Assembly: GCA_950295325.1 (NCBI GenBank)
Contig: OX485806.1
Location: forward strand, 31,434,001 to 31,498,000
DNA length: 64,000 nt
Reading direction: 5' to 3'
Origin: Polytrichum commune
Lineage: Eukaryota > Streptophyta > Polytrichopsida > Polytrichales > Polytrichaceae
A program made the translations under genes and the position numbers. Shown here piece after piece: positions 13,035-60,164 of the stretch (position 1 is the first letter of the stretch; each line of letters starts with the position of its first letter). Under the pieces are notes generated by a model. The model saw only the letters and a program-made list of their open reading frames with translations, ran no database searches and was not told the origin of the DNA.

Positions 13035-13288
13035 GGTTTAGTCTGCTACTGAAGCAGCTGAGGGGCCGAACTGTTTAGTTGCTACTGGAGCAGCTGAGGG
13101 CCTGGACCTGATTTAGTTGCTACTGGAGCAGCTGAGGGCTGAACTGTTTAGTTGCTACTGGAGCAGCTGAGAGGCCGAACTGTTTAGTTGCTACTGGAGC
13201 AGCTGAGGGCCTGGACCTGATTTAGTTGCTACTGGAGCAGCTGAGGGCCTGGACCTGGTTTAGTTGCTACTGGAGCAGCTGAGGGCCT
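13035..13288 (+). repeat. Tandem repeat in LTR B, unit about 38-41 bp
   Basis: Units share TTTAGTTGCTACTGGAGCAG followed by CTGAGGG. Six to seven copies lie left of CACTA-2, and two more continue to the right of it (39072-39150), so the transposon inserted within the array. The unit differs from the one at the matching place in LTR A. Confidence 0.9.
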
Positions 13289-13554
13289 CACTACAACAGA
13301 TTGGGTATTTTGTGACTGTAATTTATGACTGCCTTAAGTCATAAAATCCCAAAATATGACTGACGAGGCTCCGGATGCGGACGACGCGCGCGGTGACTGG
13401 GTCTAGTCATTACCGACGAGTCGCTTCGGACATGAGTCATATGAATATATACGGTTGTGGAGGCGTATAAAATGACAGATTCTACGATCCCCACTGCACG
13501 TGGGGCATACCTTGACTAGCCTTGGAGTCTGTGCCCTTTTTTGACCTGCCCGGG

Positions 13555-15095: not shown

Positions 15096-15156
15096 TAATT
15101 GGCGACCATCGGGGGATGAATCCAAACATCTCTTGCTCCAAGGGTAAGTTGCCTAG

Positions 15157-18100: not shown

Positions 18101-21100
18101 TGAGTCCCATCTACATGAATTAAACTAACCTCACCCTCTTCCACGTCATCTACCCAAGGTGTTAACCCACCGCTAACCCACTCTTCCTCGGTGAGCACCT
18201 CACATGGCTCCAACAATGAGCCCTCTCCTAAACTAACACTAGGAAATTCACTCCCTAAGCCTACTTGGTGAAATGTAACCATTACATCAACCTCGGACTC
18301 GGGGTACTCCCTTAGCCATTGGGCATAATCCCCATTATCCCCATAATTGTAAAAATTAGGACCTAGACTTCCCGAGCCCGAATCTATAACAACCCTTTGA
18401 CCTTCGGGATGGACGACTCCCACCAATGCCTTGCCAATCTCATTCTCGTTTAAGTCATCAATTTCCGTCTCCAATGGCAAATACATCTCCTTCTTCATCC
18501 ATCCTTCTAATGAACCAATGGACACTATGACCCTATTACCCTCCGGACCATAAGTGATGGATGGTTTAGGTCCACCCCAATTGACCATAGCATTCGCCAT
18601 CCGCAACCAAGGCCTACCTAGCAAAATGGGGAAGGTGTCCTTGTTGGAGTGCATTTTAATGACATGGAAGGTGACCAAGTACTCCTCACCTCCCGTAGTC
18701 ATTCTACAATCCTTGATCATCCCCAAAGGCGTAGTCGAACTTTGATTTGCCATATTTATGACCAAAGGTGAAGGCCCCGTGAGTCCAAGTCCCAATTTTT
18801 TCATAGTATCCTCCGGTAGTATATTTAGACTACTCCCTCCGTCGACTAGCACATTAGGAACCACCTTATCTACTATAACAACTTCTATTTCTATAGCTTT
18901 CACGTCTCTTCCACCTTGTGATTGGATCCTAGCGGCTATTTTAGCTTTCACCTTCCTCATCCTCTTGTGTACCGGCATTCCCTCCTTTAATGTTTTCCTT
19001 GCCGTGGGTGAAATTTCCAATAGTTGGCCGAAAGTAATATCCGCCTTGAGTGTACTAAGGTCCGCCCACAAGTCGTACCCGGTAGATCTTTCCACCTTAG
19101 AATTACCCACTACGTCGAATTCGTCTACGGGAACCCCCGGTCCTTCCCATTCACCCACATCGCTATTATCCAAGTCATGTACCGCATTAGTCCTCTCCCT
19201 ATCTTGTAAAATTATATTTTCCCTCTCCACATCCTTAGTAGCTCTTCTAGCTACCCTATCCAACTCGGAGAGATTAATCTCTTCATCCGAAGAGTAATTT
19301 CCTTGCTCTCCTATTCCTACCTCCAACGGGGCATCCCCTCTCCTAGCCCTAGTAGTTACCGCTAGTGCAGGTGCTTCTTCAACCACACCCTTACCCTTCA
19401 CTAACTCATATGTAATAGCATTGGTGTGAGGAGGCCATTGACTTTGCTCCTCTCCAATTCTCGTTGGGAAAGGAAGCATGTCATCACATGTGGCCTCCAA
19501 CACTCCATCCATGAACCTAACATCTTGGGAGTTAGATGGTCCCGGATCCGTTGGAGGCGCTTGTCTCCCGTTACTACCATTAGGTGGAACTCCTTGTCTA
19601 TTTTGTATTGGAATGTAACCGGTTGTAGTTTGCAAGCCCGCCGGTGGATGAAAAGTTTGCCTAGCATTACTATGGTCATAGTATAAGTTAGGTGGCCTAA
19701 GTTCATTGGCCGGTACTCCTTGTGGCCTAGCACCTCGCATATTATCCCTTGCTTGTTGTTGTGGATTAGCCACCGGGTAAGGGACATTAATTATTTTGTC
19801 CGGTTGGCGACACGTATCCGAGGGATGACTTCCTCCACAATTGCTACAATTAAACTCTTGACCTTCGGACCAACATTGTCCTTGAGCGTGCCACCTTCCA
19901 CAAAAGGGATGAAATTCCTTCTTCTCTAAATTTTGGCCACCTTGCCCTCTAGGTTGTGGTCCTCTATTGCTTCCATTTCCATAGTGAGGTGGCGCTTGAC
20001 CTCGTTGATTTTGTTGAGGTGGGTTACCGTTTCCTCTTTGGTCACGGTTTTGTCCACTTCTACAAAATTGACGCGTGTGGCCCGGTTGGCCACATTGGAC
20101 ACACCATAATCCGGAAGAATGCCTACCCGACTCAACCGGGGGTGGAGGCCCCGGTTGTTGACTCCGGATCATTAATGACATTTGATCCGTGAGGCTTTGC
20201 ATTTGTTTTATCATAGCCTCTTGGAATCCTAGTTGGCTAGCACCTAGTCTTCTCTCAACCTCCTCCAAGTGTGGATCCGTTCTAGGGGCCGGTAGTGCCA
20301 AAAGAGGTGCCGGTTCCCTAACCGCTAAAGGTCGGGGACCGGTGTCCACAATGGCATATGGAATTTGGTTCTCATACTTAGCGGGTTCTACCGTTACCAC
20401 CCTAGGGCGTATGGGGATGAATTGTGGGATCAATTCATCCTCCCTTCTCCATAGCCTTTCGTGATCTTTATCCAAGTTTTCAATATCTCTAGCCGCACGC
20501 TTGGCATCCGCCAAGGTCAAGGGATTCCTTTCTAGAACACCCCTAATAGTTCCGGACTTAAAAAACCCTTGAATGAAAAATTGCTTTAGCGTGTCGTCGT
20601 TGAGCATGGTACCCACAAATCTAGTGCACACTAAATCAAACCTCCTAATGTAAGCCGAAATTTCTTCCTCCCTTCCTTGCTTCAATGACGACAATGCCCT
20701 TAATGCGGTACTTTGACCCACTTCCGGCCTAAATTCGTTAAGAAACTCCCTTTGTAATTGTTCCCATCCCCTAAAATGTCCCTCGGCATGATCCCGATAC
20801 CATTCATAGGCTTCCCCCTCTAGAGTGGTAGGAAACCACACTAACCAATAACCCGGGTCGGTTATGAGGAAGCTAGCCAACCGTTCGATATACCGTTCCA
20901 TGTGCCGAGAGGGGTCCTCATCCTTGGTCCCATAAAATTTAGGGAGATGAGATGGCATATCCATCGCCGCTAAATTTTGTGGAACCACAATTGGTAGGCC
21001 TCTTGGCCTAACCAATGGGTCTATTGGAGGTATAGGAGGTATGGGCGGAATTGGGGGTATGGGTGGTGGATCCATCCCCCGTTCCTCGGCCATGGTGACC

Positions 21101-21396
21101 GGTGAACTATTCAACAATCCCCTATCAACTTCTACCGGGAATTCTTCTCTAAGTGTGTAATTTTCCGAAGAAGTTTCACCACTCAATTTGGAGGGAGTGA
21201 TCTCCTCTTCAAGTTGAGCTCCAAGTTCTAAGGTGTCTAGAATTGACCTAGTCCTAGGTTCGACGTTCAAACAACTCTCTATTCTAACATTATCTTGTTC
21301 TAATCTATCACTGATTTTAGAGGACCGCCTCTTTCGAGTAGATTTCTCTAGTCCTACTATCAAACTTGGTTTTTGTGAGCGAGTCCTACCTTGCAT
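15157..21396 (-). CDS. Gypsy gag-pol polyprotein (2079 aa), intact
   Basis: Single frame from ATG 21394-21396. Order: an N-terminal Pro-rich segment with IPPIPPIPP; a retrotransposon gag domain (WFPTTLEGEAYEWY to IRGVLERNPLTLADAKRAA, about residues 180-295); a CCHC zinc knuckle (CVQCGQPGHTRQFC, about 430) and a second Cys/His cluster; aspartic protease with VLVDGGSSLNIL (about 850); reverse transcriptase with the variant catalytic box FVDDF (about 1373); RNase H with YCDASN (about 1518); integrase zinc-binding region (about 1725-1770); and the integrase catalytic core with WGIDYVG, SDRGTHF and TPYHPQTNGQTERVN (about 1885). No chromodomain follows. Gag and pol are fused without a frameshift, so a processing or ratio mechanism must act elsewhere. 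It makes the particle and integration machinery of the element. Confidence 0.96.
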   Translation of the reverse strand: MQGRTRSQKPSLIVGLEKSTRKRRSSKISDRLEQDNVRIESCLNVEPRTRSILDTLELGAQLEEEITPSKLSGETSSENYTLREEFPVEVDRGLLNSSPVTMAEERGMDPPPIPPIPPIPPIPPIDPLVRPRGLPIVVPQNLAAMDMPSHLPKFYGTKDEDPSRHMERYIERLASFLITDPGYWLVWFPTTLEGEAYEWYRDHAEGHFRGWEQLQREFLNEFRPEVGQSTALRALSSLKQGREEEISAYIRRFDLVCTRFVGTMLNDDTLKQFFIQGFFKSGTIRGVLERNPLTLADAKRAARDIENLDKDHERLWRREDELIPQFIPIRPRVVTVEPAKYENQIPYAIVDTGPRPLAVREPAPLLALPAPRTDPHLEEVERRLGASQLGFQEAMIKQMQSLTDQMSLMIRSQQPGPPPPVESGRHSSGLWCVQCGQPGHTRQFCRSGQNRDQRGNGNPPQQNQRGQAPPHYGNGSNRGPQPRGQGGQNLEKKEFHPFCGRWHAQGQCWSEGQEFNCSNCGGSHPSDTCRQPDKIINVPYPVANPQQQARDNMRGARPQGVPANELRPPNLYYDHSNARQTFHPPAGLQTTTGYIPIQNRQGVPPNGSNGRQAPPTDPGPSNSQDVRFMDGVLEATCDDMLPFPTRIGEEQSQWPPHTNAITYELVKGKGVVEEAPALAVTTRARRGDAPLEVGIGEQGNYSSDEEINLSELDRVARRATKDVERENIILQDRERTNAVHDLDNSDVGEWEGPGVPVDEFDVVGNSKVERSTGYDLWADLSTLKADITFGQLLEISPTARKTLKEGMPVHKRMRKVKAKIAARIQSQGGRDVKAIEIEVVIVDKVVPNVLVDGGSSLNILPEDTMKKLGLGLTGPSPLVINMANQSSTTPLGMIKDCRMTTGGEEYLVTFHVIKMHSNKDTFPILLGRPWLRMANAMVNWGGPKPSITYGPEGNRVIVSIGSLEGWMKKEMYLPLETEIDDLNENEIGKALVGVVHPEGQRVVIDSGSGSLGPNFYNYGDNGDYAQWLREYPESEVDVMVTFHQVGLGSEFPSVSLGEGSLLEPCEVLTEEEWVSGGLTPWVDDVEEGEVSLIHVDGTQEEDVIIESSKLEEPLHFKTTSTGIVVGQDVKDYPNVPSDWYRNKEEQAHVSEADWRYVDVKLKNGKTRQMKMGSKLGEKEVREYSNLVDEFSDTFAWSYDELKGIPREMVEHRIPLIPGARPIRQKERRMNPQLQLLVKAELERLLKAGFIKPVEITDWVSPMVLVKKKNGKLRVCVDYRKLNSCTQKDHFPLPFITLLLEEVGGHSRYTFMDGYAGYNQISIALQDIHKTAFTTPWGTFVWVVMPFGLCNAPATFQRLVMYIFTDLLFKSMTVFVDDFSTQSNVDDHLHCVREALVRCRKMKLALNPDKTFLGVNKGVLLGYVVSEKGRKPDPDKIAAISDLATPTNSKGISKLLGHVGWYRELIPNFSKIAVPITHLLKKDVKFEWTDACQKAFEELRDRLSTYPVLIPPNWGKPFHVYCDASNVAIGSALCQATGEKEKDQPIAYASKQLTPAERNYSTTERECLAMVFSVKKFRHYLMCNPVVFFVDHMAIKYLINKAELSGRLARWVLLLEEFDYTVEYKPGRMHLQADHLSRLSEEIGKNPVNDMLVDDSLFVVTSTPAWYAGIVEFLTTHKLPKEWTKEERRKVRVNSRQFVVVGHRLFRRGSDGILRRCVSKTEVEAILIACHDSACGGHFSGQLTGQKILRAGYFWPTLFKDAHDYVRKCDACQRYARDDLRMEMPLHVSLPLIPFEKWGIDYVGEVHPQSSKGMKYIVVATEYLTKWAEAKAVKTDTAEHAATFMYENIISRFGVPKILVSDRGTHFLNDLIREMTEKFKIDHRKTTPYHPQTNGQTERVNGILVSILRKTVIDSKRDWDTKLTAALWAYRTTYKVTTRATPFSLVYGLEATLPIEYEVESLRVAVSTRLTESQSLRNRLTDLEALDEGRRMAAQHIEAIQRRRKITFDKRHKRRALTPGMMVMIQDARKLEFPAKFNAVWLGPYLVYEVFPNNSIQLETLNGELFPTRTSGSRCKEYRA

Positions 21397-22283
21397 TCCA
21401 TAAGAATCGATCGACCCTCACTTGACCACACATAATCCTAGCAATTCCCCTCTTAATATTTTCACTTGTCTTGGTGTGGTTATAATTTTTTTAGGAGGTG
21501 AGGAAAAGAACCTGCAAGCCCACTTAGGTGAAAGAATCCCAATAGGGGATAGGCATGTTCATGTTAATTTTTTGGTTAAGTCGGAGCATCACCTCCGCAC
21601 CTTCCCGCAAATTAACACTCACCACAATACCGATTGTGAGGGGGTGACCTTCCGAGTAGATTATGTTAAAAGTCGAGGCTTCACCCTTCAACTTCTCACA
21701 CCATCCACAATTCGGGAATTACCCTCTACAACGGATAACAACAATCACGAGTACAAAAGGCATTCCTTAATTAGTTAATGAGTTCACTTTGAAGAAATAA
21801 ACATACCTTGAGCAATCGCATCCCCCTGTGAGTTAGCACTCCCCTCAATCGTGACTCAATGTAACAACACCATAAACTTTGCGAAATATTAATTCAATCT
21901 AGAGCATGAAATGACAACTCCCAAAACTTTGAGACTCACCCCGAGGTGAGTGTCAAAGTTCAATGTCCTAAGGTGAATTTACCCTCTAATGTTTTAATGA
22001 GCTACTCGGTTATAGGTTCCTTTTAAGTTCTTAGCAAATCCCCAAAAAGGTTGAGGACGTACCTTCGCCGCGCTCCTTCCTCAAAAATGAATTTGCGTAA
22101 TTGACAATGCAATTCATTCCAAGGAATAGTTGAAATACAATGAATTCAAATGTAACCCAAAGAGAGAATACTTACCGAGTTTCGGGTGCTCCTTCCCTTC
22201 TCTCAAGTTTGTGTCTCCAATTTTTCCTAGTTGCCTCCAAGTCTCCTAGTCGCCTCCAAGTCTTGTAACTACCTTCCGCTTCG

Positions 22284-22301
22284 CTCCCGGCGGACGCACC
22301 A
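22284..22301 (-). promoter_or_regulatory. Probable primer binding site of the gypsy element
   Basis: Four bases after the 5' LTR, the minus strand reads TGGTGCGTCCGCCGGGAG. It starts with the TGG that pairs with a tRNA CCA end, and the rest could pair with a T-arm and acceptor stem. The identical site follows the LTR at 60127-60144. The tRNA species was not identified. Confidence 0.65.
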
Positions 22302-22305
22302 ATTA

Positions 22306-23846
22306 TGTGAGGCCAAACCCCCCACCCTTAAGCGTCCGTAGTCCGAGTAGTGGGTTTGGGCTCACATTCCTCCGCGGTATTGGATTTGGACTTGGATGAG
22401 TCCATAGTGCAAGGTTCACCCTTCAAGTGGTCTTGGATTTAACCAGCTCCTTCATAAACCCAGCTTCTTAGCTTCTAACTAAACAAACCCAGCTCCTTCA
22501 TAAACCCAACTCCTTCATGAACCCAGCTCCTTAGCTTCTAACTAAACAAACCCAGGTCCTTCATAAACCCAGCTCTTTACTTTCTAACTAAACAAACCCA
22601 GCTCCTTCATAAACCCAGCTCCTTCATGAACCCACAACTTTGTAGTTGTAATCCCCAACTACCTCACTAATTATTCAAGCCCTTAACTAATCTTCCTACC
22701 TAATTTCCCTAATTCTACTAACAACCCCTTTCTAATCACACAATTCTTCTCTAATCCTAAAATCCTAAAATCCTAGAGAGGAGAGGGGGAGAGAGAATTT
22801 CCTAACTTCACTAAGACTAACTAATCCACACAAGTATATTTTTGCACTCATCACAACATCAAGTGCTCAACTCTTAAACATGGAACTTACAACCACGTGT
22901 ATTCAAAACATGAACTTTAAGTACCACAAATTAGAATCATGAATTAACTTTAAAATCCTTCACGTCAACACTAATTCTACCAAGAGGTCAAGCCCTCTTC
23001 AAGGCTAACAAGCCTTGGCTCTCAAACTAAAAACTAAGCACACACATGTGCTCCAATATGGCTTCCCACACCCACACTTATAACTCGTGGGGTGCCTTGG
23101 AGCACAAAGGAAAGAGAGGATGAGTGAGGGAAGAATGAGGGATTATATAGTAAGCTTGAGGGGGTGAGCACCCTCAAGGCTCACGATAAGCCCTTGAGAT
23201 TTCCTCCTACTTAGTAGGCGCCAATCCTATCTTCTAAGCCTTCCTCCCTCAAATGATCAACAAGGATCCTAATTCGAACATTTAACTAGCCTTGGCTTTC
23301 TACCTACCACACTTTACCAAACTTGGGATGCTTCAACCCAAACTTAGCCTCCTTCGCTTTCCGCCGCCATAACTTTCTCCCCTTACTTTCCCAAATCGTC
23401 GCTCACCACTTAATTCAAACCACGATGCTTAACTCGTGATTTGATTGGTGCTTTGAGAATTTGCTTATCCTCCACCTTGCATTCTTCCTTGGGCCTTCCC
23501 CATTAAGTGGCCATGATGAGGTGGTCCACTTGTGCGCTCCATGTGATCCTCCATTCATCCCAATTCGAATGCACTTGCCTCTTGAGTCACTTTGGTTGTC
23601 TCCATCCATTTGTACTAGCCTACTAACTACTCAATCCAAGTTCTCCTTACCTATCCTCATTCATTCAAATCCTTCCGAAGGTAAAAACACAATAACAACT
23701 CACATCCTAGCCTCTTACAACATGGTACTTCTAAGACTAACATTTCACTCTTTTTATATTTTTGTGAAGTAACATGCTACTTCAAAGTGCATCAACTAAC
23801 GTTTCAAGGGTCTAAGACTAAATGTGGGCACCCTTTTGGGCTCACA
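22306..23846 (-). repeat. 5' LTR of the complete gypsy element
   Basis: Same length as the partner LTR and apparently identical. In element (minus) orientation it starts TGTGAGCCCAAAAGGG at 23846 and ends GGCCTCACA at 22306. It contains the promoter that would drive gag-pol. Confidence 0.95.
23141..23150 (-). promoter_or_regulatory. Probable LTR TATA box
   Basis: CTATATAATC on the minus strand, followed by a pyrimidine-rich stretch with TTCTTCCCTCACTC. The same box occurs in the other gypsy LTR (14391-14400), near 58768-58777 in LTR D and near 50027-50036 in LTR C. The conservation and orientation support a core promoter. Confidence 0.6.
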
Positions 23847-24404: not shown

Positions 24405-27400
24405 CTAAGTGGTTTGTTGAGGTTCCGGCGGGATAGCCTTCAATGCTTCCACATGCCACTTGGTGATGGACTTCAGTGCATCGCCCAGACGCAGCATCGG
24501 AGGATCGTCGTCGTTGTTGCCCTCGTACAGCAACACGGATTCTGCTCCCGGCTCGATTGAGGACACGCAAACTGATACGTTGCCCTCCTCAATGAGGCGC
24601 CCGTGGAGTGAGCCTCCTGCAAGGCTCACGATGATGCCTTGCGCCACTACGTTCGCCTTGGCCTTGTTCTCCTCGTCCAAGTCAAACAATTTGACATTGG
24701 ACCCCGTGGCCAACGGCAAGGGTGCGTCCTCCACCAACGCATTAGCCGTCTCCGACAATACGAGAGTGTCATCTTCTGCTTATGTCTGCAGCAGAAAACG
24801 TAATTATCAACAATCAAAACAATCCGCGTGGAGTTACTGGAGCTTCAATATTCAAAATATGACCTTACACTAGGCTATGATTGTATAATATGACAGGACA
24901 TACTCATATAACGCACCGTAGTCATCAGATATGACAATAATGAATAATATAATTACGACCTATAACTGACCATAGTCATACAACCCATGACTAGCCATAG
25001 TCATATGAATGAACATAGTCATATTTCCTATGACTGACCATAGTCATATGACTGGACATAGTCATATTGTATGACCACAATAAGTTACATATTCACCTAG
25101 GGTCCTCATATTACTTCGTGGAGTGACATACCTATGCGGACATATGTTATCAGCATCTTACTTGTTTGCGATTGGAGTGAGAACCAAATAGAAACAAAAA
25201 ATATCCAAGAGCAGCTTACCTGTGTCGATGAACCTACCAGGTTCGTAGGTACCGACGCTAGATGGACCTCCTTGGTCAGATACGCCAAGCAATATTCAAT
25301 ATCGGATTGTTTGCGGGCCAATGCTTCGAATGGCCCGCAGATTCTGCGGAGGAAGTCATCGTTGGGGTTTAGGGGATCCCAAACCGGAAAGTTTAGGACA
25401 TTTGAGGGGGGGGGAACGCGCCGTCGCCGTTGTATCCCAATCGATTTGGAGACATCGTGTTGAGCCGTGCGTGGGGTCCGGAATCATATCAAATAGATTG
25501 CGGAGGTCTCTTATTGGGTTCTGCAGGGGGTAAGTCCGACCCCACAGAAAGCTCCATTGAGCTGTCGTTCCCGATGCAAGAAATGCACCTACAACCTCTA
25601 GTACGTTCTGCTCTACGGGGGACCATATCCCGACATCAAAATTAGAGAACAACATCGACAAAAACTTGTCGCAGTCGGTCTTTTTATTTATTTTTACATT
25701 CAGGTCCTTTGCGTGGTGGATCACTAGATCCGGGCCCCACTCTCTCCTATCGTGCAGAGGTCTGATATCGCAAAGAAGCCCTACAACATTCAACACTATA
25801 ATTTTCCTACGCCCGGAGTCCGACACTCTTACCAAGGGGACCTTCGCAGCTAACGGCTGGAACTTCGGAGCATTGCCAGCCTTCTTCTTCTTCTTCTGTG
25901 GACTGCCTCCTTTATGTGCCCGTTTTGCCGGCCTCTTCGTCGCAGGCTCCTCATGGTCTTCGTCCTCCTGCAAGTCCACGGGTTGATCCTGACTCGCTCC
26001 AACCGTCATAACCTGGAAGGCCACGACCCAGTAACACTCTTGCGTTAGATTATGACTCGGCCCTGTCATACATGATTGCTTGTGATAACCTCATGTCATG
26101 TTATATGACTGCTACTTCTCATGTTTTATGACTGAAGTGAGTCATATAGTATGACCGCCTATAGTCGTATAACATGACTGCCTAGAGTCATATTATATGA
26201 CTGCCTACAGTCATATTATGTGACATAGTCATATGACTGTCCAATGTTGATGCCAAATTAAAGACATAAAGCTTGCACGTAAGTATAACTATCTGACAAG
26301 TATAATGTGCATATGACATGAATGCCAACCTCTTTCTGTCGAGCCATTGCACGCCGGGTAGGCCGTGCATCGCGTTCCGCCAATAGCTTCTCCGCTTCGC
26401 CCTTCCTCTTCTTGGCTATGGGTTTCTTCTTTTGAATGACGGGTTGGCAACCCATATCTGCTAGGGTGTTACGCAGGGGCTCCGATGCCGCAGTCGACCC
26501 AGTATGCCCGGATTCCGCCGACTTCCCAGTTGCCTGCATGTTCTAATGATCTACATGAGGCGTGTATTAGTGAACGATCTTCATGCATGACATACAACAT
26601 TGCTGAAGCAAAGGTGTTCCATACATGTACTCGAAGCGAGTACTAGAGGGTATACAGACGCAACCTTTTCGGCGGTTACTTGGATCACGTCGACTCCCGC
26701 TTCCGCCGTGGCTGGCGGTTCCATGTCCGTGGCCGTCGTTCGCTTCTGCACCTCCAGCAGCAGCTGCTTCACCATAGCCTTCATATCTTCCATCTCCCCC
26801 TTCATGCTATCCTGGAAGTCGTGCAGCTCGCTCCGCGTAACAAAGAGGGCTCTATCTCCCGCTCTTGCATTTGGGAGTGGCCCTCTGGACGACGATGACC
26901 GGCCCCGTCCTGATTTCCCGGGTGTCGCTAGCTCGGTCTCCACCTCCAGCTGCGTCGGGGGCCGCTCTAAATCTGCGGCCTGTGAGCAACTGTGGATCCA
27001 TGAAAAATACGTAAACATACTAAATATGACTAGGTAAAGTCATATGACTAAGAATATGACTAGGTAAAGTCATATGACTCAGAATATGACTAGCTAAAGT
27101 CATATTACTCATAATATGACTACCTGAAGTCATATTACTCAACATATGACTAGGTGAAGTCATATGACTCACAATATGACTAGGTGAAGCCATATGTGTC
27201 TGAATATGAATAGGTGAAGTCATATTCAGGTCACATGTGACTATCTATGGCCATATGACTCATGGTATGACTATGTAAAGTGATATCATTCATTATATGA
27301 CCGAATTGTATGACTGCAGGTTGTCACCTATTTATGTTTGAATGACTTGCACACAAAATCACTTACCAGTCTAGAGCGCACCTCTCCCTCGGACCTTCCA

Positions 27401-29873
27401 GAATACGACAAGGTCTGCACGGTCTGCCGTGCGGCTTTCATGCGCGTAGCTTCCGCGATTTTGTCCGTCCGGGCAATTAAGCGCTTGAAGTTGTCGACGT
27501 GCGCCTTCTTCACATACGGTGGGAGCGGGCCACAACTCTCTATGAGTTTCTTCATGTTCGACCTGCGAGTCCGCATCTGCTAGCGCAAAATCTGAAGAAA
27601 AAAAACAGCTTCAGGCACGTCTCCGAGTCCACCACGGTACTCGAACTGTGCGGCCATCTTGTCTTTAATCGCCAACAACAAGGGCCGTGGGTGTGCCCTG
27701 AAGTTGTCAACGCTCCAGTCGAGGTCGCGAGAGTACCCGCGTAGTCGCGTCAGCCAGTCAGGCCTGTGTATCCCTGTCGGGCACCCGGCCTTGTCAACGT
27801 CGACCCACAAACGTTGACCACCACTGGAAGTGTGCAGCTCGTCACTCTTCTTCAAGGACCGCCTAAGGTTCTTCAACTTCGACTGTCGATGCTGCGCGTT
27901 TCCGTCGTCGCCTTGAACCTCTGCAGTCCGGCCAAGGCAACGCACCTTCTCGCGAAGTTGTGTTGGATCGGCTCCTTTTTGAGCCATACGCCGCAAAATG
28001 CTTACTTCCCGGAGCTCCAACTCGTCAAGGAGCTCGTTACGATGCCCTGCGCCATCCTCTTCCTCCTCGTTGTCCGCCGATGCGTCGTCGGCGTCCATCT
28101 CGCAAGCCCGGAGAGTATCTTGCATGTCTTGGGACAGCAGGATATCCTCCTCATCGACCGCCTTGCCCTTCTTTCCACTGGATTGCAACGGCCATGACCT
28201 GGGTTCATTTGCATTTCCCTACACACCCAGACGTACAATACATTATATGACTGCATGACTATACTAAGTTACATAATATGACTGGATAAAGTCATATGAC
28301 TACCTATAATCATGTAACGCGAACGACTGAATGCGGAAGCAAATGCAAGAAACTACGGAGATGTATGTTTTTACCTTCCGCCTCCTTGGTTTGGGCCGCT
28401 CGTCCTCAGAAGTCTCCTCTTCGTCCTCTTCGTCCTCGTCATCATCGAGGTCCGTTTCAGGAAGTTGTTTTTTTCCCTTCGCTCGAGTGGTCACACCCCA
28501 GCCACCACCCTGCTCTACAGATGGGCCCGGCTCTCCCACAGGCACGCCACGGCTGCTCTCAAAAACACGCGCAACCTCATTCCCCACTCTCTCCAAAACC
28601 GGCAGTGAAATTGCCGGGAAACTAGCAATTGTGCGAAATACTTCCACTTGCATGCCATCAGGCAGATTAGCTATTTTTGTTATCAAATTGACTAGTACAT
28701 TGTTCATTTCGGCATTTTTGGTGGAAGTCGCGGGAACCACACTGTTCAGTACGAGCGGGGGTTATTAGACGGACATTACATCTTACAAAAATTGTGACTC
28801 CAACACATGCCAATGCTAAAACATGACTCAAATGAGTCATGTGGGTGAAAATTAGTATGACTGGGAGGAGTCATAATCATGAAATTGTTCACAACATGTA
28901 ATGAGGATGGTTGAAAATAAAAATTGAAATTGAATGTCTATTACTGGAACTCAGTTCAGGATTCCATTGTAATTGTTAGAACCTATTGCAGAGTTGACAA
29001 CACATACACATTGTCAACACATACACCTACACATACACAACACATACACGTACACATACACATACACAACACATACACATTGTCAACACATAAAATTGAG
29101 CTTGAACCTTTGTGAATTCATCTTACGAAAGGAATATGTAACAAACACATACACGTGCTCTAGCTAGTATTAATTGAGTTCCAATAATTCAAACTTTCAT
29201 TATCATCACGGGCACCAACCAATCATGCATGTGAGCAGCTTAGTTAGCCCCCACTACATTGTTCCTCAATATGACACCCGAATTATTTAGCCTATGCATT
29301 ATGGTTTCAATTCCCTTTCAAATTTGGTAACTCTGGACTGTTGGGTAGTATGGAATTATTCATTCATTATGTGATGTCAAAAAAAAACATTGTTCATACA
29401 CATGATCATAAATGCACGATCGTAGAAAACCAATAGAAGCCACATATGATGCACAACAACAAAGTTGTGGGAAGAAGTTACAATATTTTTAGGACTGGGA
29501 GGAGTCATAATCACAAAAATGTGACTGGACTGTGTCATAATGACCTTAAAGTATGACTACAGTGAGTCATAATATTTTGAACTATGACTACAGGGAGTCA
29601 TAATACTATGAACTATGATTGCAAACAGTCATGTCTTCAGCAAGTTGTATGCAATTTATGACTACAAGGACTCTTAAAAGTTTCAAAATTCATAAGCAAC
29701 CCTAGCTGTAGCGGGTCCGTTGTATTAGGGTTTGGTCATACATACCCGGGGTCCTCAGGTCTCTTGAAATGAGAAGTCCCAATCGGTGACAGACCCAGTT
29801 CCCGCAGCTTCTGGTTGTTGGCCTCGATGTTTTTCTTCCGCATCCTCTCATACTCCGGAATTTCCTCCTCCAT
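24405..29873 (-). CDS. CACTA-2 accessory (TNPA-like) multi-exon gene
   Basis: ATG at 29873. Exon 1 (29746-29873; EYERMRKKNIEANNQKLREL, a motif common in plant transposon-associated proteins) joins exon 2 (28375-28741) in frame. Then come coding blocks at about 27580-28188 (acidic, then YVKKAH-type basic helices), 27367-27576, 26665-26979, 26330-26533 and 25220-26012, and a last block from about 24785 to the stop at 24405. The joins of the blocks at 27367, 26665, 26330 and 26012 are all phase 0. The donors at 26664 and 26329 begin GTTG, which is unusual. The block at 25220-26012 changes frame by one base at a run of nine G (25406-25414), so it is either a mutation or a homopolymer error. Joins around the third and last blocks are unresolved. 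No catalytic domain was recognised; binding to the TATGACT repeats is inferred from En/Spm TNPA. Confidence 0.65.
27010..27240. repeat. TATGACT/AGTCATA inverted-motif array in CACTA-2
   Basis: About a dozen copies of the pair TATGACT...AGTCATA lie at roughly 36-bp spacing, for example AATATGACTAGGTAAAGTCAT. It occupies an intron of the accessory gene. Further clusters lie at 24890-25080, 26090-26240, 28240-28320, 29490-29650, 34100-34160, 36190-36300 and near both element ends. Confidence 0.9.
28985..29095 (+). repeat. ACACATACAC microsatellite
   Basis: A low-complexity run of ACACATACA units with interspersed TTGTCA. It lies in the first intron of the CACTA-2 accessory gene. The ORFs across it are repeat artefacts. 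Confidence 0.9.
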
Positions 29874-33178: not shown

Positions 33179-34077
33179 ATGGCAGGAGGGGAGGTCGAAA
33201 GCTTGAAGCATTTACAGTTATGGCAAGAAGAAGAGGTCCAAGCAGATGCAATGCGGCTATCCAAGTACCCATGCCCATGCATGGAGTGTGCAGGAGGGAA
33301 AGTCCTCGATCGAGCCACAATTCGAAAGCATCTTCGCAGCAAAAAAAGGGACCCTGTGTTTACAGCCTCTATCTTGGTGAGTCATTCCATGAAACGACTT
33401 TTGAATGAGCGTAAGCGGGTGGTCCTGAACTGAGCGAGTTTTCATCTTTGTGTACATGAATTTTGTAGGTCCGATGGAGACCCATTGTAAAAGCTGCTTG
33501 CAAGACATCCCTGAGAAAGTTTCTAAGAGGACACGAAATGCCTTCACAGTCAATGCCAAACACAACGTCTGCAAGAGTACGAGCCTTGCAGACATGGGGG
33601 TCAAACGTGTATGACGGACAGTGGTGTGACGGGCCCATCCCAAAACTTATAAAGTTTTCATATTGGAATAGAGAATGGGAAGTAAGGGTGTCCAACTTCC
33701 CATTCATGGGTTGGGGTCTCTTTGCACTTCAACCCGCCAAAGAGGGAGAGGAACTGCTGCCATTTGTAGGACCACAATACACCTTGGGAGAATACAGATC
33801 TTTGAAGAAGGCACAACCTCGAGTGAAGTCATATGCGATGCAAGTTGAGCCGGACTTGTACATCGATGGAGATGTAATGAAGGGGAATGTCGCTGGTTTC
33901 ATAAATAGTTCCATAGGACGCAAAGAAATAGGAAATGTGGTGTGGGAATTTCGCATGTTGCCAAAACCCTGGAACAAACAGGAATGGGGGTATGTAATCA
34001 CCATAGCCACAAAGGACATTTTGGTCGGAGAAGAGTTGTATGCACACTACTCTTTGAACCCGCACACCGCATTGTAG
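33179..34077 (+). CDS. Transpos_assoc-SET fusion protein (268 aa), alternative product of the transposase gene
   Basis: Exon 33179-33376 has a GTGAGT donor at 33377. A TTTTGTAG acceptor precedes 33469, from which the frame is open to TAG 34075-34077. Both exon ends are phase 0, so the join is in frame. Residues 1-66 carry the Transpos_assoc zinc-binding motif. The SET domain follows: GWGLFA at about 147-152, a YAMQV strand, GNVAGFINSS at about 205-214 and GEELYAHY at about 253-260. SET proteins transfer methyl groups to lysine, mostly on histones. The usual RFxNHS pentapeptide is GFINSS here, while Asn and the final Tyr remain, so activity is possible but uncertain. No pre-SET or post-SET cysteines were seen. 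The product could also start at ATG 33538. Expression and splicing are untested. Confidence 0.75.
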
Positions 34078-37000
34078 ACTAACACCCATTAGTCCACATT
34101 CGGGATGACTAAAGTGAGTCATGTGTTCACTAACATGACTACACGAAGTCATATTTTGTTTTGACAAAATTTTGTATACATGTCCGGACCACGGTATACA
34201 TGCATACGTGGAACATGACCATTTTTTTACATCCAATGCTTGTATTTGTATGGTGCATGAAATTTCTTTCACCTGACACACTCTTGTCTTCATAATCGAT
34301 GAACATCCCCCCACCCCCCACGCATGTTACACATTCATGTTATATTCGGCGTTTTATGATTGCCCCTCGTTAGATACAACGCGCATTTTATGACATAATC
34401 ATGTAACACAGGAGTCACAAATTTATGACTCATCCATGTGGCACAAAACTATTTGTGATTGCTCCTTGTCGTTTTTATACATTTGTATATAATATGTGCA
34501 TGTTATATACAATCCGTGTTCTGTGATTGTTAATGTTATGAGTCCTTGTCGTATGTTTCTGCCAAAGCGAAAATATGTAACGTGCGCACAAATTTATCAC
34601 TCTCTGCAGGACGAGTACAGCCCGATTGACTTGTTCTCCCATGCACCCCGGACTGGGCAAAGAAGCCAAACATACCCTAACACAAACGATGGACAAGATG
34701 GAGAAGTTGAGGTGCTACGTATGGTGGCAGAGTGCTTTGGCAAGTACGATGGCCTCAAATTTGACGGACACGAAACCGAAGCCACCATACATGAGGGACT
34801 CGGGGATGCATTGGTTGAAGACGATGAAGGGGAGGATGGTTTCACAACGAAGGACAGTGAAGGTAGCGAGGGGGAAAGGGAAGAAACGAATGACCCCATG
34901 GAAACAAGAGGGAGTACCATGAACAGTGAGGACCCCAGTGGGGTAGACCACCAGAAGCTCTTATGCGAAGCTGGAACTCCACTGTATGAGGGAAGCCCCT
35001 CGAACCGTCTCACATCGACACTCTTGATACTATTGTGTTGCACCACCTTCGCTGTACCAAACAACTTTGTGGATGAGTTGTTGAAGTTGTTGAAGGAGAC
35101 AATTTTACCCAAGGACAACACACTACCGAAATCATTTAACGAGGCGAAAGGCTTGTTGATGAAGTTGGGGTTGTCCTACAACTCAATACATGCGTGTAGA
35201 GATGGATGTTGTTTGTTTCGGAAAGAATTGGAGAATGCAACGGAGTGCCCAACATGCCACAAATCGCGCTTTGTTGAGAACTCCAGTACAATTCCAGTCA
35301 AAGTTTTGAGACATTTTCCTTTGATTCCTCGTTTGCGAAGGATGTACAGCTGCACACGGATCGCGGAGCTAATGAAGTGGCATGTAGGTGGGAAAAGTAA
35401 GGACAAGGTGATGAGGTCCGTGGTGGACTCGAAGGCTTGGGACCACGTAAATAATAGGTGGCCGTGGTTTGCGGAAGATGAACGGAACGTTAGGCTTGGC
35501 CTTGCACTGGATGGCGTAAATCCATTTAGGAACCAAAGTCTCAGCCACTCTACTTGGCCCGTGGTCATGCTAAACTACAATCTCCCCCCTTGGTTAGTGA
35601 CCAAAAACTTCTTCATGATGCTTGCGCTAATCATACTCGGAAAAGAGAGTGTAAGGGACAGGAACGTGGATGTGTACATGGCACCGTTGATTGAGGAGCT
35701 CCAAGAGCTTTGGAAAGGGATCGAATGCTTGGACGGATCGCAAGGAAACTCCAAAAAGAAAACATTTAAGCTACATGGCATGCTTTTGTGGACGGTGAAT
35801 GACTTCCCGGTGTACGGTTTGATTTCGGGGCAAGTAACAAAAGGACATAGGGCTTGCCCCGTATGTGGCCCCAACGTGGCAACACGGCGTTCCAAAGCGT
35901 TGAAAAAAAATGTTTACCTTGGGCATAGACGACAACTGCCAATGACCCACCAATGGAGACGACAAAGGTCCAATTTTGATGGGCACCCGGAGATGAGACC
36001 ACCGCCAAGAAGGATGAGTGGTCGAGAGCAATTGCGATATGCGAACGAGCGAGAAGAGTGGACGAAAAAACACTACAGAAACCAAACTGGGCAGACGACA
36101 GACCCCGTACACGAACATGGAGTGAAGAGGAGGACATGTCTATATGACCTTCCATACTGGAAAGTACGTGTATATTATTATGAGAATTAAGGGAGTGGAC
36201 GTAGTAACATGATTGCATATAGTAATATTGTTTATGAGTATTATGTGAGTAGACGTAGTCATGTACAGTCACATGATTGCACGTAGTGATATTGTGATTC
36301 GTTCCGGAAAATTTCTCACTGGGTCGAGTCATTGTGCAGGATCTTCTAATTCGCACACATTGGATGTTATGCACTGTGAGAAAAACATCGCTGAGAATGT
36401 GATGAAAACCATATTTGGAGAGAAGGATACACTTGGAGTTCGTCTGGACATGAAGGAGGCGGGTATACGCCCACATCTTTGGCCCGTAGCAGGAACAAAA
36501 CCCGGTAGCGTGATTCTACCTCGGTCCTCGTACGTTATGACGAAAGAAGAGCGTGAAGTCTTTGTGGAGCAAGTGCGTGCACTGCGAACCCCCACTCACT
36601 ATGTGGGACAGTTGAAGAAGCGCGTAAACGTGGATGGGAGCATAAAAGGCCTGAAATCCCATGACTACCATGTCCTCATGCAGCAAGTGTTGGCACTATG
36701 TGTGCGCTGCACAATGGAAAAGGAAGTGCGGACATCCATAATAATGTTGAGCCGTGTATTCAGGAGGATGTGTGCTAAGTCCATTGATCCTGCAACAATA
36801 CAGGAGATGAGGTGTGAAGCGGCCATAGCACTATGCATGTTGGAAAAAGAATTCCCGCCATCATTTTTTGACATCATGACCCATTTGGTCCTGCATCTCG
36901 TGGAAGAAGTGGAAATTTGTGGACCTGTACATACACGTTGGATGTACCCTATCGAGAGGTACCTGAAGACTCTAAAAGGGTATGTCCGAAACCGTACTCG

Positions 37001-38409
37001 ACCAGAGGGTTGCATGGCTGAAGGCTACGCCATAGTAGAGGCATTGGGATTTTGTACGGAGTATATGCAAGAATATACAGTCACCACTCGAAGAGTGTGG
37101 GATGACAAAGAAGACCCATCAATGTATGATGAGATCCTCGAAGGTGGCGGGCGGGCGCGTCATCTCCCATCCGACCTTCGACAATGGATACATGAGTTCG
37201 TGGTGAACAATGCGGCACCACTGGAGGAGTGGAGGAGGTGAGTTCACTGTTTACTGGAAGAACCTTAAATGCACCACCTTTGTTAGAACAGCAGTCCAGA
37301 CCATACGAACTACAACAAAACACATCTTTTGTGACCTTATAATCATGACTGCACTCAGTCATATTTTGGGATTTATGACTGAGTACAATCACAAAATGTA
37401 GTAGTAAAATATGCATTTTGTTGTAGTTATCGCGACACACTACGACTACTGTTGTACGCAAATATGACTGCCCTTAGTGATTTCAGCAAGTCCCGGGTAA
37501 TGATGTCATGGGCTGTATCCAAAATGCAGGAAACACGAGGATGACATGTCACAGCGGGAATGTGAGCGGCACGAATATAGGCGCAAGAAGCGGAAGGCGC
37601 GGGTAATGTACCCAGCGGAGCTGCGCGACGAAGATTTCCACATTTGGTTTCCAAAAGCAGTGATGCGCGCCATAGAAGAAGGCACTGAGGAGGTACAAGA
37701 AGACGTTAGGGCCTTGATGTTACCTCCATCGGATGCAGCGAAGTCGTATCGATCCATGTATGCGTTTGGAAACCACATCCGTGTCCGAAGCGCACAGGCG
37801 CAATTGACAACAATGGACTCAGGGGTGGCCGCCACATTTCGACAATTATGTCGCTCGGGCCTAAAGGACACAAATCCAAAGGCAGCGGAGTTGGAGTATG
37901 TGGGTTGGGTGGAGGAAATCCTATCGGTGGACTATGGATTCTTCGAGGTGGTGGTCCTCTATTGCAATTGGGTCGTTGCAAACATTAAGGGAGATGGGGC
38001 GACGATGAAGCGCGACGACTATGGATTCACCATTGTAAACTTTGACAGATTGATTCCGTTCTCAGCACAATCATTTGCATTTCCTCTCCACATCGAACAA
38101 GTTTTTTTTGCACCTGACGTAGCGAAGTGTGGATGGGAAGTTGTTTTGCGCAAGGAACCGAGAGGGGTTCGGGTATTCTCCAAACAACAAAGAACGGATG
38201 AAGTACAATGCATAGCACTAGGTAGGACTTCTGATTTTCCCGGATTACAAGTGACGGCGTTTCATGACGATATCGTACCGAAAACACCCATATTGGGCGA
38301 TGCAGTGGAAGTAGGGCCAGGAGTGGTTGCCAAGGCATTAGAATGTTTAGAGGGACCGGATGACGCATCGGTAGATGACTCCGAGCACTGTGACTCGGAC
38401 GGTGATTGA
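33179..38409 (+). CDS. CACTA-2 transposase (TNPD-like), four-exon model, 1177 aa
   Basis: Exons 33179-33376, 34610-36167, 36340-37237 and 37530-38409 sum to 3534 bp with no internal stop. The first holds a Transpos_assoc domain (MRLSKYPCPCMECAGG, IRKHLR). The second holds Transposase_21: a Cys/His patch (CRDGCCLF, CPTCHKSRF), RLGLALDGVNPF (Asp 367) and RNVDVYMAPLIEEL (Asp 420), then HGMLLWTVNDFPVYG. The third has LDVMHCEKN (Asp 594, Glu 599) and DUF4218 (GLKSHDYHVLMQQVL). The fourth has DUF4216 (ELEYVGWVEEIL, VNFDRLIPF). The second intron uses a donor at 36168 (GTGTAT). A better-looking donor four bases upstream (GTACGT) would break the frame. It should catalyse cut-and-paste transposition in the nucleus. 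It is complete and probably functional if the model is right. Confidence 0.88.
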
Positions 38410-39068
38410 CTTCCCGTCCGAGCAAAAAGTTGTTTTGGTGAAACTTAGGTGGGTATATATTTAAGTTCAATTATATACATGTTCAATTAGTCTTTTGGCA
38501 ATAGTAAAAATCAAATTTCCTCCCCAATTTCCCCCCTATACTCCCTAAAACATCAATCAATTAATTATTCGATCAATAAATAAACATGGGCCATTCCCAA
38601 TTTTCATTGTTGTTCATACTATAACACACAAAGTACTTAATTTTGACCATTATCTGTCATTATTAAATAAATACTCCAAACCATAATACTAGATAATGAG
38701 TCATGGGGCAAAAACACAAGAGGCCCATCTAGGGCAGCCTGAATTATCAAGGGCTGCCCAAAAAAAGTAAAAAAAGGGTCCTAGTCAGAATGTGACTGAA
38801 GAATATGACTCGCAGAAAAATGTGACTGGCACATATGACTGGGCGTCCACCATACACGTTCCCCGTCGTTCCCTATAAAGGCAGTCGTCGTTCCCATACG
38901 TCGTATATAGTACATTTGCCGAATACGACAGTAAAATATGACTGCGAGTCATATTTTTGAATTTCGTACCCACCAAAGGTCGAGGCCTGGGAAAATGTGA
39001 CTGCATGTAGTCACCAGTCATCCCCAGTCATATTTCCCTAGTCACAAAATACCCAATCTGTTGTAGTG
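38410..39068. repeat. CACTA-2 right subterminal region
   Basis: Non-coding. The first half is AT-rich. From 38785 to the end it has dense TATGACT, TGTGACTG and AGTCATA motifs, mirroring 13310-13500 on the left. It ends in the terminal inverted repeat. Confidence 0.85.
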
Positions 39069-39329
39069 CCTGGACCTAGTTTAGTTGCTACTGGAGCAGC
39101 TGAGGGGCCGAACTGATTTAGTTGCTACTGGAGCAGCTTAAGGGCTTAAAACTAAGCATAGGTCAAGTTATGCATTTTAGATTATTCTAGCATGTATGTA
39201 AGTGTTAGATTTATTAGGCTAGTTAGCGTGAGGTGTGGCTTGCTAGTAAATGTAATTGGGGTGGATCATCAAGAACAGTGTTTTTAAACACTTGCATCTT
39301 CTTGGTCAAAATAAGTTACTTGTTCAAGA

Positions 39330-39494: not shown

Positions 39495-39734
39495 ATTTTA
39501 GAACTAGAAAGTTCACTGAGATGAAGGATATTTCTTATATCATTGAGATTTGATACTACACATGTGATTCACAAACCCATCATCCGGACTAGGACGCTTA
39601 AGGGTGGTGGGTTTGGCCTCACAATCACCCCAATGCAAGTAAAGGAAATTTTAGTACTTATCAGCTAGAGCCTTTCCGGAAATACAAAGATTGACTACAA
39701 GCAATCTAATGCTCCACCTTCAATAGTCAAAGTT

Positions 39735-40955
39735 CCGCAATCCCTCCCATATTGTTGTCAAACTCGTACATCATTTGAATCGCAAGGTTGTCAAAGAGCT
39801 TGAGTTCCTCAATTTGTTTGGTATTGTCCATGTCAAGCTCTCACAACATCCTAACTTAAGGGTATCAAAGAAGTCAAGTTTCCCAATTCCTCTGGTTTTG
39901 TTGTCACACTCATACACCATCTTAAATCCATGGTGGTCAATGAAAGCAAGTTCACTCATCCATTTGGTAGTGTTGTCAACCTCTCATACAATGTCAAATC
40001 CTACGGTTGTGAAGACAAATAGGTTCCCAATCCCTCTGATACCATTGTCAAGCTCGTACACCATCTCAAATCCATGGTTGCCAAAATAGTCAACTTCCCC
40101 AATCCTTCATGTCTCTTTGCCAAATGTAGGATTGTCAACGAATTTGACTTCCCCACTCCTTCCGATATCATTGTCAAGCTCTTACAAAAGCGCAAATCCA
40201 AGGTTGTCAAAGGCATCACGCTCCCCAATCCCTCTAGTATTGTTGTCAAACTTATAGACTCTCTCAAATCCAGGATTGTCAAAGAACTCCAAGTTTCCCA
40301 ATCCCTCTGGTAACTTTTTCAAGTTCTTCCAAAACATCAAAACTAAGGTTGTTGAGGAAGCCACATTCCGCAATCCTTCCGGGATTGTTGTCAAGCTTGT
40401 ACACCATCTCATATCCAAGGTTATCAAAGAAGACAAGTTCCCATATGCCTCTAGTATCTTTGTCAAGGTTGTACACCCTCCCAATTCAAAGGTTGTCAAA
40501 GAAATCAAGTTTCCCAATCCCTCCGGTATCGTTGTCAACCTCACACACCCTTTATAATCAAGGGTTGTCAAAGAACACAAATTTCCCAATTCCCCCAATA
40601 GCACAGTCAAGCTCATACACCATCCCAGTTCAAGGGTTGGCAAAGAATTAAGTTCCCCAATCCCTACAGTATAATTTTCAAGCTCGTACACTCTTTCAAA
40701 TCAAGGGTTGTTGGAGAACTAAAGTTCTACAATACTTCCGGTATCGTTCTTAAGTTTGTACACCCTTGATAATCAAAGGTTGTCAAAGAAGTCAAGTTCC
40801 CCAATCCCTCATGTATCACTGTCAAACTCTTACACAAGCTCAGATCAAGGGTTGTCAAAGAAGTCAAATTCTTCAATCCCTCAGGTTTAGTTCTCAATCT
40901 CGTACACCCTCTCAAACCTAGGGTTTTCAAAGAAGTCAGTTTCACCATTGAAATC
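39735..40955 (-). pseudogene. Leucine-rich repeat gene fragment, decayed
   Basis: About 1.2 kb of 72-bp (24-residue) repeats on the minus strand, of the type SLTTLDLxxCxSLT followed by IPEGLGNL. Best open pieces are 40727-40948, 40182-40691 and 40001-40282. Stops and frame changes between them show it is broken. Such LRRs form the ligand-sensing part of NLR-type immune receptors and related proteins, but no NB-ARC, TIR or kinase domain is present here. It begins about 110 bp outside LTR B. The 24-residue repeat with a conserved Cys is a type I associate with mosses and lycophytes. Confidence 0.8.
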
Positions 40956-44109: not shown

Positions 44110-46170
44110 TGTCGCAACCCTTGCTAGGTCCCTTAATAATGTTGCCAATTTTCCTTTCTAGCAAAGGTTACGAGCGCTAACCCTTCGCATACCGCCATGC
44201 TAATGGTTAGCTCCTCTTACCCCGGACCACATAGTTCATAGAAGGGGAACCAACCCTCCTACTTTGCTTTCGGGACTCACCCCTTAATCGGTAACCCATT
44301 TCTTTGATGTGGACTTCCATCCATGGAAGTCCAATCCTATGTTGATCATCGTGTTGCCGGAGCAACACTACAACAACCCGAACCATACTAGGCAACTATG
44401 GCCTCACAATGGGCCAATGCCCATGGAGGCCGTGCCGTTCGGCCTCGGGTGGGTGAGGCCACACCACCTCACCCATATAAGCCTCTAGGACTCTATGCGG
44501 GGCCCCTACCCCACCGTCAACCAACCTCTTGTCTCTCTACCAAGAGTTGGGGCCAAGTGGACATTTTCCCTTAGCCGCTGGGCCTAGAAGCCCCCACAGC
44601 TTCAGACCATCATAACTTCCTTGTATGATGTCTGATCATAACAACCAACCACTCCATCCTCATCTACGCTTCACGTAGATGCCGATGGACTCCTCACTTG
44701 CCCCATTCGGGCAAGTGGTGAGGAAGTTATGCCTGTTTGAACCTTGGCAGTCCCGGGAATCACTCCCAGGCACTGCTGTACCAGGGCGCTGTCCCGGGAC
44801 GCGCCCCACTCAAATGGCCATAACTCCTAGCTCACACCTCCGATTGAGGTGTTCTTGAGCATTCTAGAATCACCACGCCATGAGCTACGCATATCTCATG
44901 GCCTTACCCTTGTGCCTCCTAGTCTCCGTGGGTGGGAGGCGTTCCCAACGCCCGGGGCCCTCACCCACACTAGGATCACTTGGGCCCTCTCACCAATGGC
45001 GCCACAAGTCCCGGGTGTCACTCCGGGGTCCCCCTTGTGCCCATGGTGTTTCGGGCACTCCTCATGGAGAGGTGCGCAACATGGAGGGCCTAAAGGGGAG
45101 GAGGCTCCAGAGACGCGCCAGATGTTGGGGTCATCCACTTGCTGGACCGGCGCGTACGGAACTTGGTGGGGCCGCATCAAGTGCTGGAAGCTGAAGGACT
45201 GTCGCGCACCTCTCCATGAGGAGTGCCCGAAACACCATGGGCACAAGGGGGTCCCCGGAGTGACACCCGGGACTTGTGGCGCCGTTGGTGAGAGGGCCCA
45301 AGTGATCCTAGTGTGGGTGAGGGCCCCGGGCATTGGGAACGCCTCCCACCCACGGAGACTAGGAGGCATGAGGGTAAGGCCATGAGCTATGCTTAGCTCA
45401 TGGCGTGGTGATTCTAGAATGCTCAAGAACACCTCAAGCGGAGGTGTGAGCTAAGAGTTATGGCCATTTGAGTGGGGCGCTGTCCCGGGACAGCGCCCTG
45501 GTACAGCAGTGCCTGGGAGTGATTCCCGGGACTGCCAAGGTTCAAACAGGCATAACTTCCTCAAGACTTGCCCGAATGGGGCAAGTGAGGAGTCCAGCGG
45601 CATCTACGTGAAGCGTAGATGAAGATGGAGTGGTTGCTTGTTAGTATCAGACATCATACAAGGAAGTTATGATGGTCTGAAGCTGCTGGGGGCTTCTAGG
45701 CCCAGCTGCTAAAGGAAAGTGTCCACTTGGCCCAACTCTTGGTGGAGAGACAAGAGGTTGGTTGACGGTGGGGTAGGGGCCCCGCGTAGAGTCCTAGAGG
45801 CTTATATGGGTGAGGTGGTGTGGCCTCACCCACCCGAGGCCGAACGGCACGGCCTCCATGGGCATTGGCCCATTGTGAGGCCATAGTTGCCTAGTATGGT
45901 TCGGGTTGTTGTAGTGTTGCTCCGGCAACGCGATGATCAACATGGGATTGGACTTCCATGGATGGAAGTCCACATCAAAGAAATGGGTTACCGATTAAGG
46001 GGTGAGTCCCGAAAACAAAGTAGGAGGGTTGGTTCCCTCCTATGAACTATTGGTCCGGGGTAAGAGGAGCTATCCATTAGCATGGCGGAATGCGAAGGGT
46101 TAGCGCTCGTAACCTTTGCTAGAAACGAAAATTGGCAAGATTGTTAAGGGACCTAGCAAGGGTTGCGACA
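44110..46170. repeat. Near-perfect long inverted repeat (two arms of about 967 bp)
   Basis: Arms 44110-45077 and 45204-46170 are near-perfect reverse complements around a 126-bp spacer. The outer ends read TGTCGCAACCC and GGGTTGCGACA. A primer site for tRNA-iMet begins two bases after the right end, so the whole 2061-bp block may be one LTR that is internally palindromic. Alternatively it is two LTR copies joined head to head. The mirrored 178-codon ORFs on both strands follow from the symmetry and are not genes. RNA from it would fold into a long hairpin. Confidence 0.92.
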
Positions 46171-60122: not shown

Positions 60123-60126
60123 TAAT

Positions 60127-60144
60127 TGGTGCGTCCGCCGGGAG
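60127..60144 (+). promoter_or_regulatory. Primer binding site of the second gypsy copy
   Basis: TGGTGCGTCCGCCGGGAG lies four bases after the LTR end, identical to the site at 22284-22301 on the minus strand. Confidence 0.65.
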
Positions 60145-60164
60145 CGAAGCGGAAGGTAGTTACA

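Follow-up and report, generated by a model that had tools for sequence, protein, structure and literature searches.

A long-standing SET-domain exon in the transposase gene of a CACTA transposon family of Polytrichum commune

A CACTA element with a nested retrotransposon

The window analysed here is a stretch of 64,000 nucleotides from Polytrichum commune (C4:31434001–31498000 of the 407.8-Mb assembly). It contains a whole CACTA element at positions 13289–39068, which measures 25,780 bp including a nested retrotransposon and about 15.5 kb without it. The element is bounded by facing, identical terminal inverted repeats (TIRs) of 29 bp, namely CACTACAACAGATTGGGTATTTTGTGACT on the plus strand (13289–13317) and its inverted copy on the minus strand (39040–39068), and is flanked on both sides by the target site duplication (TSD) CCT (13286–13288 and 39069–39071). 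Its assignment follows the usual features of the CACTA/EnSpm superfamily. The TIRs begin with CACTACAACA, the TSD is 3 bp long (CCT in the window and TGT in a second copy), and the transposase is of the TNP2 type, with a Transposase_21 match of 243.7 bits against a cut-off of 28.6. The second copy is located at C5:44114968–44130648 and is 15,681 bp long. Genome-wide, the TIR matches 114 places at up to two mismatches, compared with none for a reversed-pattern control. The right-hand TIRs of L025, L028 and six copies outside the clade of the window (L014, L016, L017, L022, L024 and L026) have differing flanking DNA, as expected for mobile elements. A candidate subterminal short repeat, TATGACT, clusters at 23–39 kb and near the left TIR.

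The nested insertion is a Gypsy-type LTR retrotransposon on the minus strand (13555–23846; LTRs at 13555–15095 and 22306–23846; TSD CCGGG), which does not belong to the CACTA element proper and is missing at the corresponding site of the C5 copy. Its two 1541-bp LTRs are identical and it holds an open frame of 2086 aa, which suggests a very recent insertion. A partial copy of the same retrotransposon, 97–98% identical, occupies 58068–64000. Two other features lie to the right of the CACTA element. The region 39727–40947 on the minus strand is an array of 72-bp units that encode LRR-like repeats (xLTTLDLxxCxSLTxIPEGLGNL) and is possibly the end of an NBS-LRR gene. The region 44110–46170 is a long, foldback-like inverted repeat with arms of about 970 bp that are 96% identical and with CACTACAACA ends at 44366 and 45916; its end also occurs in L020 and L010.

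Within the CACTA element, open frames on the minus strand at 24405–28761 mark a probable second gene, divergent from the SET/transposase gene described below. It has no Pfam match over the cut-off. Four of the six frames tested (24408–24779, 25359–26090, 26584–27039 and 27583–28218) are also stop-free in the C5 copy, and the frame at 28303–28761 is not. An excess of silent changes is clear for 25359–26090 (p 5e-4), slight for 27583–28218 (p 0.02) and absent in the remaining frames tested. This gene is a candidate for a TnpA-like partner of the transposase.

Exons and junctions of the SET/transposase gene

On the plus strand, the gene begins with exon N (33179–33376; 66 codons), which encodes the N-terminal, Transpos_assoc-like domain of the transposase and ends in TTG/GTGAGT, with the donor GTGAGT at 33377. 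A 92-nt intron (33377–33468) separates it from the SET exon (33469–34077), whose frame opens directly after ...TTTTGTAG and runs for 202 codons to a TAG stop at 34075–34077; it is a probable alternative terminal exon. Exon T1 (34610–36167), which carries the Transposase_21 domain, opens directly after CTCTCTGCAG; its donor, predicted from the phase, is GTGTAT at 36168, with GTACGT at 36164 as the alternative. It is followed by exon T2 (36340–37237, boundaries predicted), which matches DUF4218 with 129.4 bits, and by exon T3 (37530–38409), which contains the stop and matches DUF4216 with 26.5 bits, below the cut-off of 30.6. The T2–T3 intron also holds a short MITE-like inverted pair, AACTACAACA...TGTTGTAGTT (37308–37428), that resembles imperfect CACTA ends.

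An earlier note on this DNA had described a SET block wired into a transposase gene, with phases that permit both an N-SET and an N-transposase product. Its three junctions were re-read from the sequence and are exact: the N donor after 33376, the SET acceptor before 33469 and the T1 acceptor before 34610 are all in phase 0. The SET identification, which the note had staked on a profile match, holds as well, since the block matches PF00856 with 39.0 bits (cut-off 22.4; E 1.2e-9) over profile positions 1–104 of 105. The note also assigned exon N to Transpos_assoc. The 66-aa exon of the window scores 21.3 bits, under the cut-off of 27.7 (and 23.1 bits against U-box, cut-off 21.4), whereas the homologous region of the relative L032, where it forms one piece with the transposase, exceeds that Transpos_assoc cut-off at 36.2 bits.

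Copies of the SET exon across the genome

Searched with the Pfam SET profile, the whole assembly gave 119 matches, 90 of which have the length of the element's domain (325–360 bp). A scored Transposase_21 match is located 0.9–2.4 kb downstream on the same strand for 64 of these 90, and no pair in another order or orientation appears among the scored matches. Because the Transposase_21 search scored 150 of 643 candidates, the 64 SET-paired matches among those 150 should not be read as a real proportion, and unscored partners may exist for the 26 element-length SET matches that lack a scored one. A search with the SET protein gave at least 150 matching stretches (150 of 205 candidates scored), some of which belong to a single copy. 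Of the rows examined, which cover 88 of the 90 element-length matches, 49 keep a stop-free frame of at least 196 aa.

Among 32 facing TIR pairs of the window's subfamily, counted from 100 of the 114 TIRs and from the first 39 SET places of the protein search (broken ones included), 25 have between them an intact or broken SET that belongs to the same clade as that of the window. The length of 21 of these 25 pairs is 14–17.5 kb; the seven pairs without SET comprise six of 5.8–7.5 kb and one of 17.6 kb. A one-off insertion of the SET block, which the earlier note had suggested would leave other copies of the family without it, is ruled out by this family-wide presence, both in the pairing with Transposase_21 and in the TIR pairs. 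Members that lack SET do occur, as the seven TIR pairs and the locus L030 demonstrate, and SET is broken in L033 and L034.

Conserved architecture and relatives without SET

To compare copies, 20 loci were fetched by SET score, a choice that biases intactness upward; L012 and L015 are other SET genes and were dropped from the element counts. N, SET and T1 follow in that order on one strand in all 18 family loci, and within 10 kb T2 is seen in 17 of them and T3 in 16. The SET domains of some clades among these loci are 47–58% identical to that of the window, and clades with transposases that are 39–59% identical repeat the N-SET-transposase order together with its phase-0 junctions. All 19 copies, counting that of the window, have a GT donor and an AG acceptor at the N-SET junction; the intron measures 256 nt in L010, L011 and L013. 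The phase-0 acceptor of T1 falls into three sequence classes and is AG in 16 of the 17 copies listed by motif (AA in L026); L022 and L027, which the motif missed, both show AG. An in-frame TAG abuts the T1 acceptor in L014 and L024, which indicates that the first codons of T1 can be read there only after splicing at that site. The shared junctions are more than chance, because they are shared by copies that are saturated at synonymous sites relative to the window. The same arrangement is found again in the far more distant clade F (L036 and L037), with phases 0/0/0 and a T1 that is 37–40% identical to the seven others compared; its N matches Transpos_assoc weakly (19.6 bits, below the cut-off). 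L036 and L037 are 99.8% identical over 5.5 kb and lie on different chromosomes, which suggests recent movement of the clade F lineage too.

Six further transposase loci were examined. Four of them (L030, L031, L032 and L035) have no SET match at E 0.1 within 4.7 kb, and the other two (L033 and L034), fetched as SET-less, are clade A copies with a broken SET and an open T1 frame. N and T1 form one open frame in L031 and L032, are parted by a 203-nt phase-0 intron in L030, and are separated by a gap in L035. The fused or singly split gene of these relatives indicates that N is the transposase's own N-terminus and that SET sits in the N–T1 intron. In the Transposase_21 search, the alignments of the 13 best-scoring matches begin at profile position 8 or 9, and none of the 13 has a SET match; of these, L030 was examined.

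The sharing of N is not the only way to read this gene. Two features count against it, as T1 might start without N: T1 has a conserved Met close to its beginning, in an xRM motif, and some copies carry an in-frame ATG ahead of the T1 acceptor. The locus could then consist of two tandem genes: N-SET, self-sufficient through its splice and the SET stop, and a transposase that starts in T1, either from its own 5´ exon or from the internal Met, with N unshared. We regard this arrangement as quite improbable, given that N and T1 are one polypeptide or one split gene in the SET-less relatives and that a phase-0 T1 acceptor matching the N donor is kept in every clade examined.

The end of the SET frame bears on another reading, in which the exon is fully included and an N-SET-transposase fusion is made through a donor close to the stop. 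A phase-0 GTGAAT is present just before the stop in the copies shown of clades B, C and D, and GTAAAT or GTAAAA in two of clade E. However, the three clade A copies compared, that of the window among them, have no such donor, and the TCC or CCC that precedes GTGAAT in clades B–D provides a weak donor context. The fusion is disfavoured on both counts and appears very unlikely.

Selection and phylogeny of the SET exon

Between clades B and D, the SET exon has a dN of 0.11 and a dS of 0.65 (ratio 0.17; T1, 0.16), and silent changes are in excess with p about 1e-12 (simple binomial). The exon is under purifying selection between clades. The closer clades B and C give a dN/dS of 0.36 for SET versus 0.18 for T1, and the values for SET are 0.38, 0.51 and 0.97 within clade A and 0.75 for L016–L021; recent constraint on SET is weakly supported.

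The trees of SET, T1, T2 and T3 agree on the main clades; the SET exon and the transposase have been inherited together. In the T1 tree, the SET-less L030 is placed inside the group of clades A–D (94% support; 38% for the exact place), and the SET-less L031, L032 and L035 group with the SET-bearing clade F, apart from A–E (98%). On these placements, either SET would be ancestral, with repeated losses, or modules would have been exchanged between lineages. The SET-less L030 lineage within A–D, together with the broken SETs beside open T1 frames in L033 and L034, indicates that SET is not needed for spread. Judged from these comparisons, the N-SET-transposase arrangement is old.

CACTA elements are known to carry fragments of host genes (a soybean example is cited in the literature), and a Pack-type captured fragment has a close host paralogue and no constraint. 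The SET exon could accordingly be read as a fragment of a host SET gene, recently captured and devoid of a role. Neither mark is found here: no close host SET gene appears among the eight host loci compared (best 14.4 bits against the family profile), and the B–D ratio denotes constraint. SET is moreover present in clades with saturated dS, and its tree is congruent with those of the transposase exons. Recent capture is contradicted by this family-wide conservation, and we consider it hardly credible.

Motifs of the SET domain and their bearing on activity

A profile built from the SET alignment matches solved structures of SET1, ASH1L and MLL-type methyltransferases (best E 1.7e-5). Single members match as well: all 10 aligned copies have a SET match at E up to 1, the best at 1e-11, and clade F has one of 23.1 bits. 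G81 and G83 of the GxG motif and the final tyrosine, Y194, are invariant in alignments A1 (10 rows) and A2 (5 rows). Both GxG and the final Tyr, which is catalytic, are features of canonical SET lysine methyltransferases. The Y-D and N-V..I-N positions are invariant too in these alignments, and GWGLFA, PFVGP, YIDG, GNVAGFIN and GEEL-A-Y are common to clades A–E with few exceptions. The canonical NHS motif was not found: it is replaced by NSS in 18 of 18 aligned copies (L026 is too short to include) and by NST in clade F. All aligned copies have Ala two residues before the last Tyr, a position that is usually Phe or Tyr. PR-type SET domains lack NHS and can be active; a PR-domain profile (PRDM2_PR) matches one of 10 members weakly, with E 0.009. 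As to protein P0002, a structure prediction of the protein alone has a mean pLDDT of 30.9, no match was obtained in phage records at E 0.01, and 27 stretches of viral contigs fitted a pattern, none of them a relative.

The two substitutions, in every aligned copy, raise the main rival to the mechanism proposed below, a non-enzymatic regulator of the transposase. The SET exon might be a 'poison' exon with a regulatory effect, or its domain might be catalytically dead, and N-SET, which has N in common with the transposase, might serve the transposase as a dominant-negative or recruiting partner. On the other side, the GxG, Y-D, N-V..I-N and final Tyr positions are invariant, SET matches the transposase in its low dN/dS between clades B and D, and activity in PR-type domains does not depend on NHS. 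On balance we judge a non-enzymatic role less likely than not.

A proposed mechanism of alternative splicing

We propose that SET is a long-standing, selected exon of this CACTA family, seated in the N–T1 intron and most likely used by alternative choice of the 3´ splice site, and we hold this account with fair confidence. One pre-mRNA would share exon N and offer two acceptors. Use of the far acceptor would join N to T1-T2-T3 and yield the transposase, and use of the near one would join N to the SET exon with its own stop and yield a protein of about 268 residues, composed of a putative DNA-binding N domain and SET. Through the shared N domain, the N-SET protein may be drawn to the DNA of the element itself and could there modify or occupy nucleosomes, thereby opposing host silencing or adjusting the access of the transposase. 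From its coding sequence, the element is probably able to make a chromatin-acting protein besides its transposase. A more specific version is that an ancient CACTA lineage encodes, through alternative splicing from exon N, a self-targeted lysine methyltransferase with an unusual, NHS-less active site, which sets the chromatin of its own copies and in this way counters host silencing, with the SET-less descendants as natural deletions of this function; we put it forward tentatively, as a possibility that remains more doubtful than not.

Comparison with known systems

SET-bearing, SET-broken and SET-less relatives coexist in one genome and can be compared with each other. If the N-SET protein is made, one DNA-recognition module would serve both cutting and chromatin modification, and the family would offer a natural setting in which to ask whether the histone marks on copies of a mobile element are steered by the element itself. 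The self-regulating proteins of plant Vandal elements, named VANC, are not known to be SET proteins. Such Vandal proteins act on the silencing of their own element (excerpts of PMC12730594), but the element is a MuDR rather than a CACTA transposon.

The earlier note knew of no CACTA transposase gene with a SET exon built into it. Our search of the openly accessible literature found no description of one, and excerpts of a paper on CACTA transposase introns (PMC4158355) contain no statement on a SET domain. The claim of novelty is weakened by two precedents. In Phytophthora, genes for SET histone methyltransferases are present in HarbingerS and MuDR elements (excerpts of PMC12730594, citing Kojima and Jurka 2014), and two proteins made from one CACTA element through alternative splicing are known from the classical Spm/En case (excerpts of PMC2613891). 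The present family places a conserved chromatin gene within the transposase gene of a CACTA element; the cases found reported in the literature covered are those of Harbinger and MuDR. The Phytophthora elements are likewise DNA transposons with a SET histone-methyltransferase gene; they belong to other superfamilies. No Harbinger family is present among the matches of the window's transposase up to E 10.

Epigenetic enzymes are also borne by fungal DNA transposons, in which TET/JBP genes occur in EnSpm, Plavaka, Zisupton and others (excerpts of PMC12730594). These include CACTA-related elements, as here, but their enzyme is a dioxygenase acting on 5mC in fungi, in contrast to a SET protein. 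The composition proposed for N-SET, with its putative DNA-binding N domain, resembles that of SETMAR, in which SET is coupled to a DNA-binding domain that derives from a transposon and has its sites scattered over the genome (excerpts of PMC8616336). SETMAR differs in that it is a host fusion gene with a mariner transposase and is not borne by a mobile element.

The proposed mode of expression resembles that of maize Spm/En, in which alternative splicing of a single element produces both the tnpA and the tnpD transcripts, with the tnpD frame supplied by the intron-1 region (excerpts of PMC2613891). This precedent of two proteins from one CACTA element counts in favour of the shared-exon model. 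Both are CACTA elements with a coding block within intron 1; alternative splicing yields two proteins in Spm/En and would do so here. The block in intron 1 of Spm/En is the transposase, whereas in the present family parts of the transposase gene flank a SET exon on either side.
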